From the NCBI RefSeq assembly GCF_964204645.1, contig NC_134028.1, forward strand, positions 20,124,153 through 20,188,152: a stretch of 64,000 nt of DNA. The letters are read 5' to 3'. A program made the translations under genes and the position numbers. Position 1 is the first letter of the stretch. The number at the start of each line of letters is the position of its first letter. This document shows, piece by piece, positions 4,001 through 63,690 of the stretch. The notes under the pieces were generated by a model. It had not been told where the DNA came from. It saw only the letters and a list, made by a program, of their open reading frames with translations, and did not search any database. This DNA is from Tubulanus polymorphus (lineage: Eukaryota; Nemertea; Palaeonemertea; Tubulaniformes; Tubulanidae).

Positions 4001-7000
4001 AGTATAATTGTCGGGATTGTAAATGATACTTGATTTTCAATTGTTTCTAATTCAAAAGAAAAATGTATTTTCGTGATGATTGCTACGACGCAGCCATTAT
4101 TTGACGTTTATATTGCTTGAACAATGTCGGTCATCAGCTTAAGTAACCACTGTCATTATATCAGAAGAATCTTTTTCGTGGAAAAAGTGTTTTAAATATC
4201 ATATCTCACCGTCGTAAATCCAAATGGGATCATCTGTAGGCTTTACCCTGTAAGCGATCTTGTACCGAAGTGGACCGTCCTGATCGCTACAATCCTTACT
4301 ACAGAAAACGTTAAACTCTGTACCGATTGCCGTTCCTTCAGGCGGATCCACACCGCAAATCCCTTCCTTCGGAGTATCGTTTATCTCGAACGGCAGACTG
4401 GCCTTTCCTATCGATGCAAAGAAAAACTAACAGGATCCGTTTTGAAGTTATATCTGAGGTCAACTAAGTTATCAGTTAAGATTCTCATGTTTGGAGTTGA
4501 AAATGACGTATTAAACCTCGTATAAATTTCCAATCACATGAACCAAACGTCCGCCGACTAGTTTGCTATCTCTTCCTAGGGCCTTCTAGACCGAAGATAC
4601 TAGCGGTCCAAGATTTCAATACAGACACCATTTCAAAAGGGCACAAGCAGATGCAAAAAAGGAACATTTAGGCCCTAAGAGAAAGACGTAGCTCTCTTAA
4701 ACTGATTTTGTTTTCTGATGAAGCTAGTGTGCAGTAGTGAATATCAGTATGTGGACGCTTCGGGAAATTAAATATTGACAGAGTCATTCATTTGGAAACC
4801 ATGATCATGCTGTTTTGGCGCCCTCTCATCATAGGTTATATGCCAGAAACTGACCTAAAGACAAAACCACAAATATCCATTCAGCCAAGCCGAATTAAAG
4901 TAAGATAGACACGATGATTTTATACCTTTGATTTTCGGGTTTGCTGTCCTCCACGACTGCACTAATAGCGCGTATCTCGCATCTTGATCGGTTCTCAAAT
5001 TGTTGAAATAGCCATCTACAGCTGGGTATATAGAAATGTAATCATGCGTGATACCAGTGGGCACTGATTTCGCCCAATCGTTTAGCGCAATTGTTTGGAA
5101 AAGGATTGTGTGACCTTGGATTTTCACTTTTCTCAACGTCCAGCTAAAATGCGATTTTTCATGTCAACATATATCCCACACGTATATGTACGTGAAAAAT
5201 CCCACAATAATTCAGCCAAATATCTAAAGCGATTAGCAAAACTCCTTCCGAATTGGTTCAGACGTACTGATGATTGCGAATAGTCTTTAGCCCAAACGTT
5301 GCTCAAATTGAGGGAAATTGTCCATCGAATGGTGGATAATTGTATTTACGCGACGAGAGACTGAGGACCACGCACTGGCGCCATCTATCACTAAACCTTC
5401 ACGTGCGCTCGCAGCTGTTCAATAGCCAATCGGATACCTTGCGCCTTAGTCTCTGCAGAGCTGCGTCATGATAGGTAGACGTGTTTTGAGCATTCGTTCT
5501 CGCGAAAATCCATCTTAGTCGTCGCATTTTACTTAGTTGGCGCCGACGAAGTAGGGGCCACTGTCATTTATCATGTGCGCTGTAACAACACAACTGTAAT
5601 ATACACTTCCATTCTAGAACTTATGACCTTTGGCTGAATTTATTATGGGATTTCTCCCGCATATTTATCTTATACGGATGTTGTGTATCTTCACGCCTTA
5701 TCCAGTTTGTTACCTATTACTTCGGATTATCTGGAAAACATCGAATGATTTGATTATCATTACCTATGATTGGAGAAGGGTCGTATAAACTTACTCGAAA
5801 CCGAAATCGCGAAGCCCCGGGAAATTTGTGATGGTCGTTCCTATTGAAAATCGGCTGCTGGGATTCATTTTAGTTTGACAGTTCGTAACACATCTAAAAA
5901 CAAAAACGATTACCAAAATTTACGCAAAGGTTTTGCAGAAATTACCGAAAATGTGTCTTGAAGTTTTTTTTGAGAAACGTCATCGATTCCGTATAGTTTA
6001 CATGTGTGCTATCGAGGCCGTTTTTAGTTACTCGGAGTATGGATTTTTTTTCAAAAAAGTGGGAGAACGAAGGGAAAAAATAAAAATGAGCTATTTTGGA
6101 CGTTTTAAAACGGAAGGGAACGGAAAATCGTATTTAAAACAAAATTATTGTTTGAGTATTTTCCACATAAAACCTCGGACGGACTGCATAAAATAAGCAA
6201 AAAGTTGTAATGAATTTGAATCAAATGTCGGAAGAAATAAATTTTTTCAAATCACGAGATCTAGAAATTAAGATGAATATAACTTAACGTAGATATATAA
6301 TTACAGAACAACAAATAGGATAAATTAAAGTATAATGAATTAGGAACAAAAGAAATCATGAATACGATGAATTAGTAACTTGTGAAAGTTACTAGATTTA
6401 AAATCGAGGCTGATATGATGAAGCAATTATTTTGTTATTGAAAAAAAAATTTAAAAACACCCCTTGTAATTAAAAAGGTTTAAAGCCTATAAATGTTAGA
6501 TTTAGCCGCGTACGCTTGGGGATCTACGGCGGACAAGGTAGACGTCCTACGAAGGGGACTTAACTGTATTCGTACTACAAAGATAACACTTACATCATTT
6601 TGATGTCAGGTGGGTCACCGTTAACCACTGATACTGACTGCTCAAAATACGCTGCTCTCAGGCCGCCCCAAAACGGGTCATATTTCAGTACCATGAGTTT
6701 CAACGTTAAGTTGAAAGCTTCGTTCCAGTTAGCGGTATCAACTACGAAGCTGGCCGTATCGATACGTTTGCCTTTTGCGTCATACATTAAACCTGCAGTT
6801 GTAAAAAGGGAATTCTAACTGTTCGTAGATAAGATACCAGTTCCATCGGTTTTCAAGGGTCGAAAGGACCAAACACACTAGATGTTATGGCCAGGATGGA
6901 TTTTTAGAGAGAATTCGTTTTTTGTTGTTGTTTTGGTGCGGGCGCCAAAACGGAGAACGGATTTCTTAAAAGGAAATTCGTCGTTTCTGCAGTTTTCATT

Positions 7001-10000
7001 ATGAATTACAGTACACATTCATTCATTATGTACATACATTTTATATGTTCTAGATTCAATTCCTACCTGGATATTGTATTTCATCTGCGTATTTGACACA
7101 TCCGACGGTGGTGAGTGGTCTACTGGACTGGCTGGCGCTGGCCGCATCTAATAACGGAGTCAAATCCCCTGGATTACACAACCTCCCTTCACTCATCACG
7201 TTAAAATACTGGTCATATGTGGCGAAAGTTTCGCAATATTTTTTGCAATACCAATCGAATTTCAACTTCGACATGTCTCTATCCGGATCGTCGGGATCGT
7301 AGGTAGAATCACCGACGGACACCGTCACGTTAGCGAACCATTTCATAGTTGTCTCGTAGCCGCCTTTGATGTTGACGACTAACGGCGTTCTTATTACGAA
7401 AATGTCACCAGACACAACCTTGAAAATACCCTGCTCTTCGTGCATGGATACGTTCAATTCCAGCCGATAGTTCCCGTACGAGAAAAACCGAGGCGCGAAG
7501 TAAATCATACGCAAACTAGAAGACGATAGTACAGTACCGTTCAACTCGTCTTCGGTCATCTCGACGAACTCACCGTTTTCCTGTTTGAAAATGGTCCAAG
7601 TGTAATTGGCGATTTTCGACGAAGTACAATTCAGAATCGGGACGGAATTTACGACGAGACTCTCCGATCGTAGCACGCCGAAGGCGCCTGGGTATCTTCG
7701 ATAGTCCCCACAGTCAGGATATCGCATGTTCGCGCATACATCCGGGATTTGAAGAGTGACATTCGGGGGATAACACGGCCCGCGAGTAACTACTAACGGG
7801 ATCGGTAAAGTCCGACGACTAACGACGTTTACCGCGTCCAGTATAACGGAATAAAAAGCGGCCGTCATCATTTTCATTTTCGGCAACTGTATACCGTTGC
7901 TATATTGACTACGTTCATTGGCAGTGAAGAATTTCTTGCAATCAGGCGCTATAGCGGCTATTTTTGAACCGTGTTCGCCTCTCTGACAGGATGCGGCGTC
8001 GCCGTACATGTACTCCCGACAGGGCGTAGCAATTTTGAAATCTATATAATAGCAAGCTCCTTCGGCGTTATTTCCTAGTTTCAATGTCGCTGATATACTC
8101 GTATTCCTGATAACGATTGGGTCCACGATTAGATTAATATCGCCCACGGGGTATCTCAGTTCTATGGTTTGCACCGGTGCTGTGGCAGCATTCAATACGT
8201 TTGAGGCCGAGAGCTCCACCGTGATCGTCTGCGGAGTGTTGAACACGTGTTCACTCGATGTTAGATTATTGTAGATGACGGCGTTGGTTTTTGCGCCGAA
8301 TTTCCACGTTAAATGCATGTGCGAGCCCCAGTCGCGCGTGGCAATGCCATAGACTACATAACTAGTCGGGTAGGCATTCGGTTTACCGTTTAACATCCAG
8401 CCACCGCGCAACTTGTCCGATCCAGGGATATAGGGATCGAGATACATGATCTTAAAGCCTAAGTTCACAATTTTTGCATATATGTTGGCCGTAATATTCA
8501 AAGATTTCTGCGAGACAGCGTTGGTGAGGTTTGCCCGAACTTGGAATGGATTACCGTTTTTATAAACGTGTGGAATTTCTATCAAAACGCATCCACCAGC
8601 TACTGTGCACAATGAAGGGCTTAAACTCCTTCTTTTCCTTCGACCGAGCGCGGCGTTTTGGCCGATCAATTCCGTTACATTTTCGCCGTCACCGAAATCA
8701 ATCGCGCACGTTGAATTAGTCGGGAAAGGTTTATTTTCTGCCAGTTTCACTTGGAATTTTGCGTTGTAGGTGGCGCCTTGGGGTATTTCCTGGATCGGGG
8801 CGTTAGTTGTTGTAATGAAATGCAACCCCACGTGATCGATTGGGATTTGAATAACCATCGGGATGTTGTTCGTCGTTGATAACACACTGACGCTGTTAAA
8901 GGCCGTTACGTTGACGAGAAACTGGCCATCCGTTTGAAAAGCGTGTTGCACTTGCTTGAGTTTGCCGACTTCGGCGTCGACCGTTTCGTTCAATCCGTCT
9001 TGAAATTCGAAAATCAATTTTACCCGTGATCCCCCCATAACCGTCGCTCCAAACTTGAGGTTTTCACCGATTTTGGCGATATTAACTCCAAAATAGGCGG
9101 ATTTGACGCTGTCTATCTTTATATCCGCCTCGACTCGATGGGTGTAGTTGAGGAAACTAACTAGATTGGAAATATTCACGTGCACCAGGTAAGTTCCTGG
9201 CTCGTTAATGGTGAAGTTGATTCGACGGTCGTCGAGGGTGAAATGTCCGTTGTCTGTTAGATTATAATCGTCTACCCAAATTGCGTACATAGGATCCGTT
9301 GGGAACGGGATTCCAGCAGCAGCAATGAAGTTCGTCCCTACCATTCCTAAAATGGATGGGTGCAAATGTCACCGTCAGATTCGTTAAGTTTCGTAAGATA
9401 GATACAATTGGAAAAAACGGTCAACATTCCATAGTTGGTTTGCACGAATTAGCAGTTTTGATACACTTCATTTTGATAGAAAATTTATAAAAACACAAAT
9501 CAATTCGGCTGAAACATTTACCTTTTAGCGGTATCAGCATGTCGGTTTTTTTATCACGTTGCAAAACGAGCGGCGAATTCGACGAGAAATTGATCGCTCT
9601 CACAGGATGTTGGACGAGAACCGCGAATTCCCTGAACACGCTTCCGAGCGGATTTTTCAGCGTAGCTTTGATCGTAAAGTTGCCCGGATTAGAAAATCGA
9701 TGCAACGTAGAGACGGTCGTATAATTGTCGCTAGATTGGAACCAATCGTTTGCCGAGGGCGTCCCGTCTCCGAACTCGTATTGTGCAGTTACCCGGGTGG
9801 CTGTTACCGGCGCTACGGTAATATTCACATCCTCGGCCGTCGGAGCGAACGGACGGTCCACCGAAAGGACCTCCGTGTCCGTAAACGGCACGTCGACTTC
9901 TATCACCGAAACGGCTGTTGAAACACTTATATCGTTGTAGACGGTCAAATTAAGTGTATAGTTGTGGACGTTTTTCTGGCCTGGAATAACAATTTTTCCT

Positions 10001-55546: not shown

Positions 55547-55904
55547 TTAACTGTACTGAGATTTATATCAGTTCGCTACAATCACTTTGTGTGCCATTTT
55601 CTCCCGTGAAAAAAGAATATCTAAAACGCTGCGCAAACTTTGAAAATCCGCTTACGTTTTCTGTCTAATTGATATTAAACCCAATGGCGAGAAGAGACAC
55701 AAACCCGGAGGATTCTATATCGAATTTTTGGTTTCCCTGTGGGTTGACGAAATTTCGCATGTACTTTTAATGAATATGTGTTTGAATTTTTAAAAATCAA
55801 AAGTTTTATAACGTTTACACTGATTTCCGCTAATAGATGACATGACATAAAGGGACTAGGTGACCAGCCTAACAGTTCGTAGTCACAGGACCTAGTTCGA
55901 CCAT

Positions 55905-56035
55905 GCTGTACCGAGTTCCACAGTTCGGGATCCAGTTCCACAGTTCTGGGCCTAATTCCACAGTTCTGGATCCAGTTCCACAGTTCTAACCCTAATTCCA
56001 CAGTGCTGGACCCAGTTCCACAGTGCTGGACCTAG
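55905..56035. repeat. Tandem repeat, 20-base unit
   Basis: Six consecutive 20-base units of the form CCAGTTCCACAGTTCTGGAT, each with one to three substitutions. Looser copies continue to about 56160, and related words are found at 32390-32465. The minus frame at 55675-56001 is repeat-derived. Confidence 0.85.
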
Positions 56036-56584
56036 TTAGACTTTGATGGATCCAACCCGTTCCGAAATCATTTCAACAGTTCAGGATCCAATTCCACTCT
56101 GAGGCTAGTTACGCAGTACTGGGTCCAGCTCAACAGTTCTGGACTCATTTCCACAAAAATGAAAATGGTGACTAATTTTCAGTCATACAGCCGAGAACTG
56201 TAGAACCTGGGACCAGTTCTATAGACTTAAGACCAGTATAATTCCTTCTCCTTTGTATAGCTAATCTAACATTTTAGAACCAGTCTTAAGATCTGAGATC
56301 GCTTTTAGACTTATGTCTCGACTATGGATTCGGACCCTAGTCTAACTAGCAATGGGTCTATAGGTCTAAATGATTTCAGTTCTGTCCAGTGTATACATTC
56401 GGGACTTGCTGTAAATTGACCAATTTTCAGTAATGGGAGTAATAATATTCGATGCCATTTCTCGCTGTTATTCGCTTGTTACGCCCACAGCTGTGAAACT
56501 AAGATGGGTTGGTCACGTGGACGATGCTGGCGGGGGTGCATGTCGTTGTCACATGGCGGTTACTTGCGGGGGTGGGGCGATCAT

Positions 56585-57505
56585 GAATGTAGGTAAAAAT
56601 CCCCCTGGTAAAAATCCCCCCGGTAAATATCCCCCAGGTAAAAATCCCACAAGGTAAAAATCCCCCCATATCCACTTTTCTATAAAACTAGAGTAGAAAA
56701 AATTAACTTTTTACAACATTATTTAGGAATACATAAGTACATTAGATATTTTATTTTTACTTTTAAACCATAGTTTTTATAGAAAATTTCAAAATTATGA
56801 TAGTGTCATTTTTGATGCATGGCGTATATGCTAAGTCACATAATAATGTCATTTTTACTGTACATAAAATCAAAGAAGTTAATAACTGTAAACTAGATGA
56901 TTCCGCGACTAGATAATTCTTAAGTAATAATTATTCATTTTCAACAGTGACCACCTAATTAGCCACTTTAGTTTAAATGACCAATTTCAATCAACTGACT
57001 CGTACCCTTAGAATAAGTATTTTGTCTCTACAGTAATTATTCTTAAATTATCTTAGGGGTAATCACTCCAGTGCCCAAAAAATTGTAAATCAAATGGGTT
57101 GGCTCTGTGACTAAATAACTCTTAAGTAATGATTATTCATTTTCAACAGTGGCCACTCTTTAATTAGCAAGTAGGCTAGTTTAAATGACCGAATTCAATC
57201 AACTGACTCGTACCCCTAGAATAAGTATTTTGTCTCTACACTTATTATTCTTTATTAAACGTTTGGTAACCGTATTTAATGGATGGAATTACTATACTAG
57301 AGTTAAATAAAGCAATAAAGTGCAATAAAATTTCGAATCTATATTTTTTAAACATAATAGCTGTTGAAAATTTTAGTGAAATCAATTATGGGGGGATTTT
57401 TACCAGGGGGGATTTTCACCTAAGGGGATTTTTACCGGGGGGATTATTACCTAGGGGGGATTTTTATCGGGGGGATATTTACCGGGGGGATTTTTACCTG
57501 TTACC
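56585..57505. mobile_element. Fold-back element with tandem-subrepeat termini
   Basis: Both ends are arrays of a ~15-base unit GGTAAAAATCCCCCC, left (56592-56665) in one orientation and right (57388-57498) inverted (GGGGGGATTTTTACC). The element is flanked by a perfect 10-base direct repeat GGGCGATCAT (56575-56584 and 57506-57515), a probable target-site duplication. The interior has two ~150-base direct repeats (56903-57050 and 57106-57255). No transposase frame is seen. The organisation recalls Drosophila FB/Galileo fold-back elements. Confidence 0.7.
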
Positions 57506-57515
57506 GGGCGATCAT

Positions 57516-60500
57516 ATGGTGGTAATCACGCGCGTTTTAGTCTTTCAAAATCGAGTCGGGATACGGTTCCACATTTCCAAAACTTTGGATAAAGTTCCAC
57601 AATCAATGGTTGCGTAAGTTTGAATCAAGTTATTCTAGTTTCATTAATTTGGTTAATGTTTTGGCCATACAGTCAAATTCTTACCTGTAACTTTGTAGTC
57701 AACCTTAGTATTTTTCCACCCACTCGGTTTTTAAACATATTTATTATCTACCCCTTCCATTACTAGTGCTTCAACTTAACCACCTATCGTGAAATCTGGA
57801 ATATCGATTGGCCATTCCTGGAATATCTTCTAAAATGTTGTTACGCTTCTTTACTTGATAATTCTTTTTTTGTTCGTTACATCATCGATAAAACGGTTTT
57901 GATCCTCCTTTCATTGTTTGCTAAATGAAGTATAGGCTATATTTAAAGTCGTTCTAGCCACCGGGGGATTCTCAACCAAGCAGCGACGACTTGTATTGTA
58001 TCGAAACTGTCGCGAAAAATTATTTATTGGAACGTTTTATTGTGCAGTAATTAACAACGGGAAGGTTCTGTAGAATAATAGAACTAAACTCCAGGGTACA
58101 CGACAGTGCCTTAAATCAACTCGCTTCTCAGTATACAAATTGAAGCTGTCGTTATTTCTGAACTTTTTGTTATAGATCTTTACCCGGGTCACTTACGTAG
58201 GCTCAGTTCTCAGTTCTTAGTTGATTTTATTTTCCATGTATGTTACCTCGAAATAGGGGTTGGTCCCTGTTTTTCATTTGATTGGTAGATTTGATTGGAT
58301 TTGTTTTGATTTATTTGCCCCCCTTAGAAATCCACAACACTTCCCAGAAGCGAAACAGGGGGTTTGATTTGTTATCATTAATAGCTTTATTCATTGCGTT
58401 TGTTTTTACGTTATATATTCATACAATAGGTTACGTAATACTCGATGTAAATATAAAATGAAAGAACAAGATAAGCTCTGTGCTTGTGTTATGTACCATC
58501 CTCATTAGTTACAAAAGACAAAAACAAAGGGAACAAGATAAAGAAAAACGAACAAAACAAAGAGAAATAATAAACTGCATTCCAGAAATCCCACGGTATT
58601 TCACACCGACTTGGGGTAGAATTTTACCAGTTTCATTCTTTATCTTAAAAGGGATTGGCCCTGTTATTTATTTGATCGGTAGATTTCGTTTGATTTTTTG
58701 TTGTTGTTTGGTGTCCCTTACAAATCCACCACACCTGCCGGGAACGAAACAGGGGTTTTGTTAGAGTTCGGATATCGAAGTATAAAGATAGTCGTGTGAT
58801 CGTCAATCGAGTTTACGTATTTTTTGTTTAGATCGAACTTGGGTCTATTTGGTCTGGGGTCGTGTGAGCTGGTCTGCTGGACAGTCCCCTCCCTGTTGTT
58901 GCGACCGAGCTGAATGAATTTGATCTATTGTGTTCGCATTTCACTTGTTTTTCGATATTCTTTAGCTCGATCAACTTTCTGGAAGAGTCCCTATTACGTA
59001 ATGAGCTCGTATTTATATGTCTGCCGCACAATTCGACTAAAACCGGGGACTCGGACTAAGATACCATTGTGCGAATTGCCTCTGCGCTCGCGGATACGTA
59101 AGCCGTTAATCTGAATGAATTTACGTCGAATACGATACGAAACCCGTATCTTAATTAAAGAAACTTTAAAACCGTTAATTTACAAGCAATAATCCATCAG
59201 TAATTACGCACGCCAAACAAGCTTTGTACACGTGTAACAGTGAACATTCATATTCATTCGATATTCGACTTGCGTAGGCCTGAGTGTGTGTATCACGTAT
59301 TTCATGCTTTAATGGCTTCGATGGACATTACTGCTGAAAAAAGCTGCAACAATGGAAATGAACGCAACACTGATGTTAACATGAACCCTTATATAGCCAA
59401 TCAGTGTCCTAATATCCCTAACACCTTCGACCGCTCGTGAATAAATTGCCGAACACAAGAAGATATTTTCGGTTCATTCAGAAGACATGTAATTTCCGCG
59501 CGTGCGCCGGTAAATGAACATTCCCCGTGTATGATAACGAGGAAACTAACTTGAATGTATATCTAGGCATTGAAATAAATTCTTAAAAGAGGTACGTATT
59601 TGCAATGGTATAGATCCAAGAAGGTTTTAGGGGACCTCGAACTGCTCCATGTCCGTAAATTTTCAGATAGCGATATCAATCATATTAATGATGTAACAAA
59701 CCGCAATTCAAATCATTATCGATTGCTGTTTAGTCGTCTGCCAGAAATTACCGTAGGTAATGCACACATTTTCAAAGTTTCGACAAATCAGGAAAATGCA
59801 TCTTTCATTGCGATCTTGATTTATTTATTTATTTATTTTAGAGATGAATTGCAACAATGTGTACAATATGAAAGATAATACGTAATGTTGTAATATGAAA
59901 CTTGGGTTTCGGAAAATGCAAGGCTTGTATAAACTGAAACCCTGAAATGGAATGCTCAATATACAAAAAGTAGTAGTTGGCCGAAAGGGAACTACTATTC
60001 TCGATCAAAACTAACTGCGATAAATACAGAGATATTTAGATACACCAGTATGTTAAATAAACATTACCGCTTAAAGTGAATGAATAAAGGAGGGTAATCA
60101 ATCAATAAGTAGATTTATAAAGGTGTTTCATTTTTGATTTGAGAATATTCAAACTTTTAACTCATGGTTTTTATTGATTGATTATCTGATTCCAAAGTTT
60201 GGGACCCTTTTAAACTCTCAATGAAAATTTTTTAACATTGTAATGACTCAAATAAAGATAATATATCTGGGAAAACACTACGCTTCATCCCCTCTGTTCC
60301 AATATCTGAATCCGCCTCTGTATTCCTCAACTTTGAAGGCAACGACGCATGAACGATGCAGTATAAAGAATCAATTAAGTGCATCTGAATTTGAATACGT
60401 CGACAATTGGATCGAATTGACTGGCGACCATTTTAACCCCAATATTGCTGACGTAGTACACATCGACTCTCACAATACCCTTTGGATAACGCAGGATGGT

Positions 60501-62885: not shown

Positions 62886-62968
62886 GTTTGAGAGCTTGAA
62901 TAGCTATTTTTATGAATCTGGCCGCTGATCATCAAAACTGTTCAAATTAATATGAGATACGTGTTTAC

Positions 62969-63342
62969 AGGTAACAATCCCCCGGTAAAAATCCCCCTTG
63001 GAAAAAAAATCCCCCCAAATTCGATTTCGCAGCAAAATTCGTCCATAAGAAACTACATTATTCTATGTTGAAAAAACTCAAATAGTTTTCAAAAATTTTC
63101 ATATTTTCCGTGGTGTTTTTCACAATATTCACCTCGGATAATCTGTGATTTTTACCAAGCTTCGTGACAATGACATTATTCTGTGACTTTTAGCTCTTAA
63201 CGTGCATAAAAATCACATAATCGTAGTTTTGAAAATTTCTAGTTTGTGATAGTAAAATAACTACGTAGGCCTACCCTAAGTATTACTGTAAAATTTATTA
63301 TCTGTTTTAATTTAGATATTTACCGGGTGGATTTTTACGTAC
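62969..63342. mobile_element. Second copy of the subrepeat fold-back
   Basis: The left end has three subrepeats (GGTAACAATCCCCC, GGTAAAAATCCCCC and a degenerate third), and the right end has TTTACCGGGTGGATTTTTAC. The interior is AT-rich and unlike that of the 56.6-kb copy. It sits in the intron of the secreted-protein gene. Flanking duplication is not evident. Confidence 0.55.
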
Positions 63343-63690
63343 ATTCGAGATATCTATATATTATCATCATTATCGTTTGTGTTTCGAAATGATTACTCAA
63401 TAACAACGGAAAATCGGTAAAAGGCTTAATCAATCGTAAATCAATTAAATGTTGAGATGATGACTAGACATAAAATCGGGAGAACTATCCATTCGGCCTA
63501 AATGATTTTATGTTGAGATCTACGTATCTCGGCAAAAAATTGAATTCTCATTTCTTCTAAACGATGCTCCCATGACGCTTCCGCAGAAACTGGCCCTCCA
63601 GATTTACTGTAGAACCGTGTCCTGAATCTGTGATATAAATTGAGAGAAGATTCTAGTTTTGTCTTATATACGGGGTGTTTGTGTTCGCAG

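Follow-up and report, generated by a model that had tools for sequence, protein, structure and literature searches.

A 921-bp element at positions 56585–57505 of the window, by which we mean the whole 64,000-nucleotide stretch of Tubulanus polymorphus DNA that was analysed, is very probably a non-autonomous member of a Mutator-superfamily (Phantom-like) family of DNA transposons. Members of this family are bounded by one GAATGTA and one GGTAACA end and are normally flanked by 9-bp duplications; empty sites are present elsewhere, and some members carry broken pieces of a FLYWCH/MULE-like transposase gene. The family is new but of a kind already described, Tm1 having the same architecture and Muta a similar one, the literature having been compared by topic and not by sequence.

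Structure of the element and of its family

The original prediction described subrepeat arrays inverted at the two ends of the element and a ten-base sequence repeated exactly outside them, and both features are present. The arrays hold five units of GGTAAAAATCCCCC on the plus strand and seven on the minus strand, and these 12 units, in the (+) 56592–56666 and (−) 57391–57498 arrays, are all recognised at up to one mismatch. When two mismatches are allowed the window contains 16 matches against 0.45 expected, a number that was reached in 0 of 100 shuffles. The 10-mer GGGCGATCAT occurs exactly twice in the window, in both cases flanking the element, where 0.07 occurrences are expected. With the 7-bp caps outside the arrays counted as part of the element, the 10-mer abuts it exactly. 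The features are as follows.

56575–56584, + strand: left target-site duplication GGGCGATCAT, 10 bp
56585–56591, + strand: left cap GAATGTA, an A-type end
56592–56667, + strand: left array of five units GGTAAAAATCCCCC(C), pitch 15–16 bp
56668–57390, no strand: internal region of 723 bp, without detectable transposase homology
57391–57498, − strand: right array of seven inverted units, pitch 15–17 bp
57499–57505, − strand: right cap TGTTACC, which is GGTAACA read inward, a B-type end
57506–57515, + strand: right target-site duplication GGGCGATCAT
58643–58778, − strand: dispersed repeat matching the empty site of member L066, outside the 56585–57505 element
62963–63346, no strand: second, older member, caps GTTTACA (left, worn) and TACATTC

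A direct duplication of 144 bp at 87% identity lies within the internal region (56907–57044 and 57109–57252). The second copy that had been proposed at 62969 is real, and its flanks GAGATACGT (62954–62962) and GAGATATCT (63347–63355) are identical at 7/9 positions. Two other features of the window were recorded: a tandem array of the 20-mer GGACCCAGTTCCACAGTTCT (7.5 copies, 55888–56037) just upstream of the element, and an open frame at 7056–9368 (−) with REJ and PKD domains, which we take to be polycystin-1-like.

Searching the 268-Mb genome for the arrays, as had been suggested, returned relatives with shared termini. The exact 15-mer GGTAAAAATCCCCC is present 180 times, 72 times in forward and 108 times in reverse orientation, compared with a single occurrence of the reversed control, and the window element as a DNA query gave at least 131 matching pieces, including near full-length copies at 86–88% identity and long pieces at 92–94%. 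We examined 40 stretches around matches or arrays and a further 16, mostly around paired ends. It can be seen from these that the outermost 7 bp are unlike at the two ends, being GAATGTA (A-type) or GGTAACA (B-type). Among the 29 loci with listed flanks, several of which have one end worn or missing, copies with both ends readable have a GAATGTA end opposite a GGTAACA end.

A genome-wide search at up to one mismatch identified 96 GAATGTA-type ends (32 exact) and 99 GGTAACA-type ends (47 exact), whereas the reversed controls gave 0 and 1. Of these 195 ends, 44 make up 22 convergent pairs of neighbouring ends no more than 15 kb apart, whereas for the other 151 such a partner is lacking at this stringency; 14 further pairs of neighbouring ends within 15 kb face in other directions. 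All 22 convergent pairs combine one A-type with one B-type end, 13 in one orientation and nine in the other, and the simple inverted-repeat ends of the original prediction must therefore be replaced by two unlike caps outside the arrays. L060 (on C17, a small contig) and L069 (on C9, a chromosome) represent one insertion in opposite orientation, with reverse-complement duplications and flanks that are 98–100% identical; the small contig is probably a haplotype that was left unmerged, or else the region was duplicated. The number of distinct insertions is therefore 21 for the 22 pairs and 26 for the 27 copies analysed below. Mixed ends are likewise expected from simple descent through internal deletion, so the pairing alone proves no mechanism.

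Target-site duplications and empty sites

Calling end pairs at up to three mismatches gave 32, of which 27 are mixed-cap copies and five are A/A pairs that were set aside. Four of the latter (L043 8173, L072, L073 and L074) are inner units of a sister family whose ends are two to three mismatches off, and in the remaining one (L007) the right cap is worn, reading AAATACA, and fits either type poorly. L017 and L026 have 9-bp duplications but fall beyond the cap threshold and were left out of the 27. At a 9-bp offset, 24 of the 27 mixed-cap copies match at six or more of nine positions, compared with 22 of 702 mismatched flank pairs used as a control; at seven or more the figures are 23/27 and 2/702, and at eight or more 16/27 and 0/702. 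The window copy matches at 10/10 positions at 10 bp and at 2/9 at 9 bp, and it is the only one among the 27 to reach at least 9/10 at 10 bp. The target duplication of the family is 9 bp and the window copy, at 10 bp, is an exception. The predicted ten-base duplication accordingly holds for this copy but does not extend to the family as a rule. Two of the 27 mixed-cap calls show no duplication (L006, 1/9; L043, 4/9), which counts against the Mutator reading.

Empty sites were found for L066, L018 and L010, in each case as uninterrupted relatives of the joined flanks with a single copy of the duplication; that for L068 is weaker, at 73% identity. Two sites matching L066 fall inside the window itself (about 58643–58778 and 58251–58370), and L018 is a member inserted within another member. 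Recombination can generate short repeats and inversions, and on that basis the inverted arrays might be a local tandem-repeat or inversion artefact, with the 10-mer arising by chance. The 195 ends found genome-wide against controls of 0 and 1, together with the 9-bp duplications and the empty sites, refute that explanation, to which we assign a negligible probability.

Transposase fragments and superfamily assignment

The original prediction proposed looking for an autonomous copy with a transposase. Pieces of such a gene were recovered, in L019, L017 and L015, but no intact copy with these end caps. These three are the only members in a set of 30 elements with transposase homology below 1e-3, a level reached by none of 30 shuffled proteins; neither the window copy nor the older member at 62963 shows such homology, and this counts against the Mutator reading. 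L019, which has both caps and an 8/9 duplication, encodes a FLYWCH zinc finger (PF04500, E 2.9e-15); the frame scanned extends past the element's end, but the matching part is internal to the element. The genome contains 56 matches to PF10551 (MULE) and 90 to the C-half of the MULE transposase of L045, two of the latter being inside family sequence. One of these (C1:13143765–13144151) is in L017, which has both caps and a 9/9 duplication, CCAGAAGAA; the other (C5:17725829–17726272) is in L015, where one end is recognised (an A-type cap with one mismatch) and homology to the window element is present on both sides. L017 and L015 match the L045 C-half at 41–45%, with E values of 1e-30 and 8e-40 in the set of 30 elements. 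Taken alone the two fragments have no Pfam match, which again counts against the Mutator reading, and the catalytic part was therefore assigned from its homology to L045. The gene fragments of L017 and L019 are read in the direction from GGTAACA to GAATGTA, and that in L015 likewise runs towards the A-type end. The N part is kept in L019 and the C part in L017 and L015, a pattern that separate deletions within a single gene would produce.

These fragments bear directly on whether the element could be Galileo-like, a P-superfamily transposon whose long inverted ends are internally repetitive. Galileo shares with the window family such long repetitive inverted termini built of tandem repeats, and its repeats contain THAP binding sites (PMC3688188, in part). 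It differs in belonging to another transposase superfamily and in its duplication length: the transposase pieces recovered here are FLYWCH/MULE-like, duplications in the family measure 9 bp, and searching the genome for P-element transposase gave only two marginal matches (E 4e-4 and 6e-4), both more than 500 kb from any listed end. The target duplication of Galileo is 7 bp. Since members hold FLYWCH/MULE-like pieces and the P-element matches are weak and distant, we favour a Mutator deletion derivative and consider a Galileo-like origin highly improbable. The label 'FB/Galileo-like' given by the original prediction is thus apt in its first half, as a structural description, and should be dropped in its second.

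No intact transposase was found between GAATGTA and GGTAACA caps, a further point against the Mutator reading. When one mismatch is allowed, paired ends span 1.4 kb (L019) and 1.7 kb (L061) at most, the first holding the N part of the transposase only and the second no transposase match. Several other candidates for an autonomous copy were rejected. In L009 the arrays are about 3.8 kb apart, but the three plus-strand frames have no Pfam match and both main arrays have the same orientation. The MULE loci L046–L055 have no GGTAAAAATCCCCC array, just isolated units with three mismatches, and in L072–L074 the transposase adjoins sister-family arrays (caps GGTTGTA and GGTTAGC), with nested insertions blurring the ends. 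L075 combines an A-type cap (one mismatch) and a single unit with matches to each half of the transposase, yet a B-type end was absent from the 6 kb examined. The MULEs of L041 and L044, less than 2 kb from listed ends, are no more than candidates for a place inside a member. A B-type end, TGTTACC, is present at L044:5935–5947, about 1.5 kb from the MULE gene and with no partner end found, and it could belong to a worn long member.

Known relatives, a possible mechanism and other MULE families of the genome

MULE duplications of 8–11 bp are reported, and Phantom is listed in several invertebrate groups (PMC6446971, in part). Three features of a Phantom-like element were found here: a duplication within this range, for which 9 bp is typical, the FLYWCH domain of L019, and subterminal inverted or FB-like termini. 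A MULE (DDE) domain is putative in the members L017 and L015, by their homology to L045. The closest description is that of Tm1 from root-knot nematodes, which is placed in Mutator/Foldback, Phantom subclass, and has a FLYWCH+MULE transposase. In the part of the Tm1 account considered (PMC3169594), the likeness extends to the duplications (9 bp in Tm1, with a range of 8–10 bp, and 9 bp here), to asymmetric 7-bp end motifs outside the inverted part, as in the mixed pairs of the window family, to arrays of 13–15-bp units in variable number, and to non-autonomous and MITE-like forms. The sequences differ, Tm1 having CGGTTAA and CCTACCC with the unit CGATTCAGTATCCGC where the window family has GAATGTA and GGTAACA with GGTAAAAATCCCCC; by inspection, the Tm1 motifs A1, A2 and C given there are not matched by these caps or unit, and by eye neither the 3-bp motif B nor the purine-rich motif D was recognised in the window family. 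One Tm1 copy in the same account has like end motifs, compared with 0 of the 22 pairs here.

Muta of Aedes aegypti likewise has long termini with subterminal tandem repeats of 9–15 bp behind a terminal motif of 8–10 bp, duplications of 8–9 bp and many non-autonomous derivatives, and Muta1 transposes in yeast (PMC5225508, in part). Muta1, Muta5 and related MULEs are assigned to the Phantom group in the relevant section of PMC6446971. As far as it is described there, the terminal motif of Muta1 lies within the inverted repeat, an imperfect palindrome, whereas the two end motifs of the window family are unlike.

Inverted termini of tandem subrepeats are also present in Drosophila FB and Tetris, the latter with duplications of 8–10 bp, and the majority of fold-back elements appear to be Mutator elements (PMC4079207, in part). 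The FB-style termini of the window family would therefore suit membership of the Drosophila FB family in the strict sense, but unit length and sequence differ from those of FB and Tetris, and the asymmetric 7-bp caps and the unit length fit the layout of Tm1, FB having been compared by description only. We regard strict FB membership as improbable, though somewhat less so than a Galileo-like origin. In the TU elements of sea urchins the outer inverted domain consists of tandem repeats of 15 bp, and the duplications are 8 bp; compared by description only, they resemble the window family in the first respect and differ in the second.

A Phantom-like Mutator derivative would be mobilised as follows. 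A FLYWCH-MULE transposase with an RNase-H-like DDE core, made elsewhere, would dock on the arrays of 15-bp units, with several molecules at each end, pair the two ends, cut at the caps and insert the element with a 9-base stagger. Short copies, including that of the window, would have arisen by internal deletion and been mobilised in trans. The 10-bp duplication of the window copy may mean that the stagger can vary by one base, or that a run of G changed by a single base afterwards. The array units are putative transposase binding sites by analogy with Galileo, for which THAP binding to the repeats was shown, the same being untested for Foldback and Phantom according to part of PMC3688188. Identification of this family adds an exactly delimited example, with defined caps, units, duplication and empty sites, to the Phantom/Tm1-type fold-back Mutator elements, and its strict pairing of A- and B-type ends offers a handle on whether such transposases tell the two ends apart. 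The caps might be true polarity marks, such that a productive complex forms only when an A-type end is joined by a B-type end and the interchangeable arrays serve only to recruit transposase; we put this forward tentatively, as a possibility that is more doubtful than likely.

Related MULE families of the same genome share parts of this layout, and those that code for a transposase and have inverted subrepeat arrays of their own (L042/L043/L045 and L048/L049) speak for the Mutator reading. The copies L042:388–3884, L043:4502–7920 and L045:3772–7247 are 98.7–99.7% identical over about 3.4–3.5 kb, in one or two pieces, and have inverted ends of approximately 95–105 bp with degenerate units around AAAATCCCA that resemble the unit of the window family. 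Their transposase scores above cut-off for FLYWCH (39.7 bits), and its MULE half, at 26.1 bits, is just below the threshold of 27.6. L042 shares 8 flanking bases and L045 shares 10; none were found when the L043 MULE copy was inspected for them. L048:1783–4447 and L049:2417–5033 are 99.7% identical over 2.6 kb, with inverted CCACTAGTCCGGGGGTT arrays, caps GGGGTCATC and GGGAGCGTA and a 444-aa frame, which in L048 matches MULE (PF10551, E 3.2e-15) and FLYWCH. L048 has the duplication TTCTGATAC and L049 has 8 shared bases, and the pair looks recently mobile. A sister non-autonomous family, represented by L043:8117–8628, has caps GGTTAGC and GGTTTTA and a 9-bp duplication, GATTTTATC; this element lies near a MULE copy of another family. 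The layouts of these three groups indicate that a plan of cap, array and duplication of approximately 9 bp recurs with differing units. If the caps do act as polarity marks, the AAAATCCC-, CCACTAGTCCGGGGGTT- and CATTTAGTCTTCC-type MULE families would be cases in which the docking array was exchanged again and again while the arrangement of cap and array stayed constant.

L046 and L047, which are near-identical, have a 471-aa MULE frame and no inverted arrays of the GGTAAAAATCCCCC unit. At about 5400–6000 they contain a one-sided tandem block with a period of approximately 54–57 bp, the copy number of which differs between the two.
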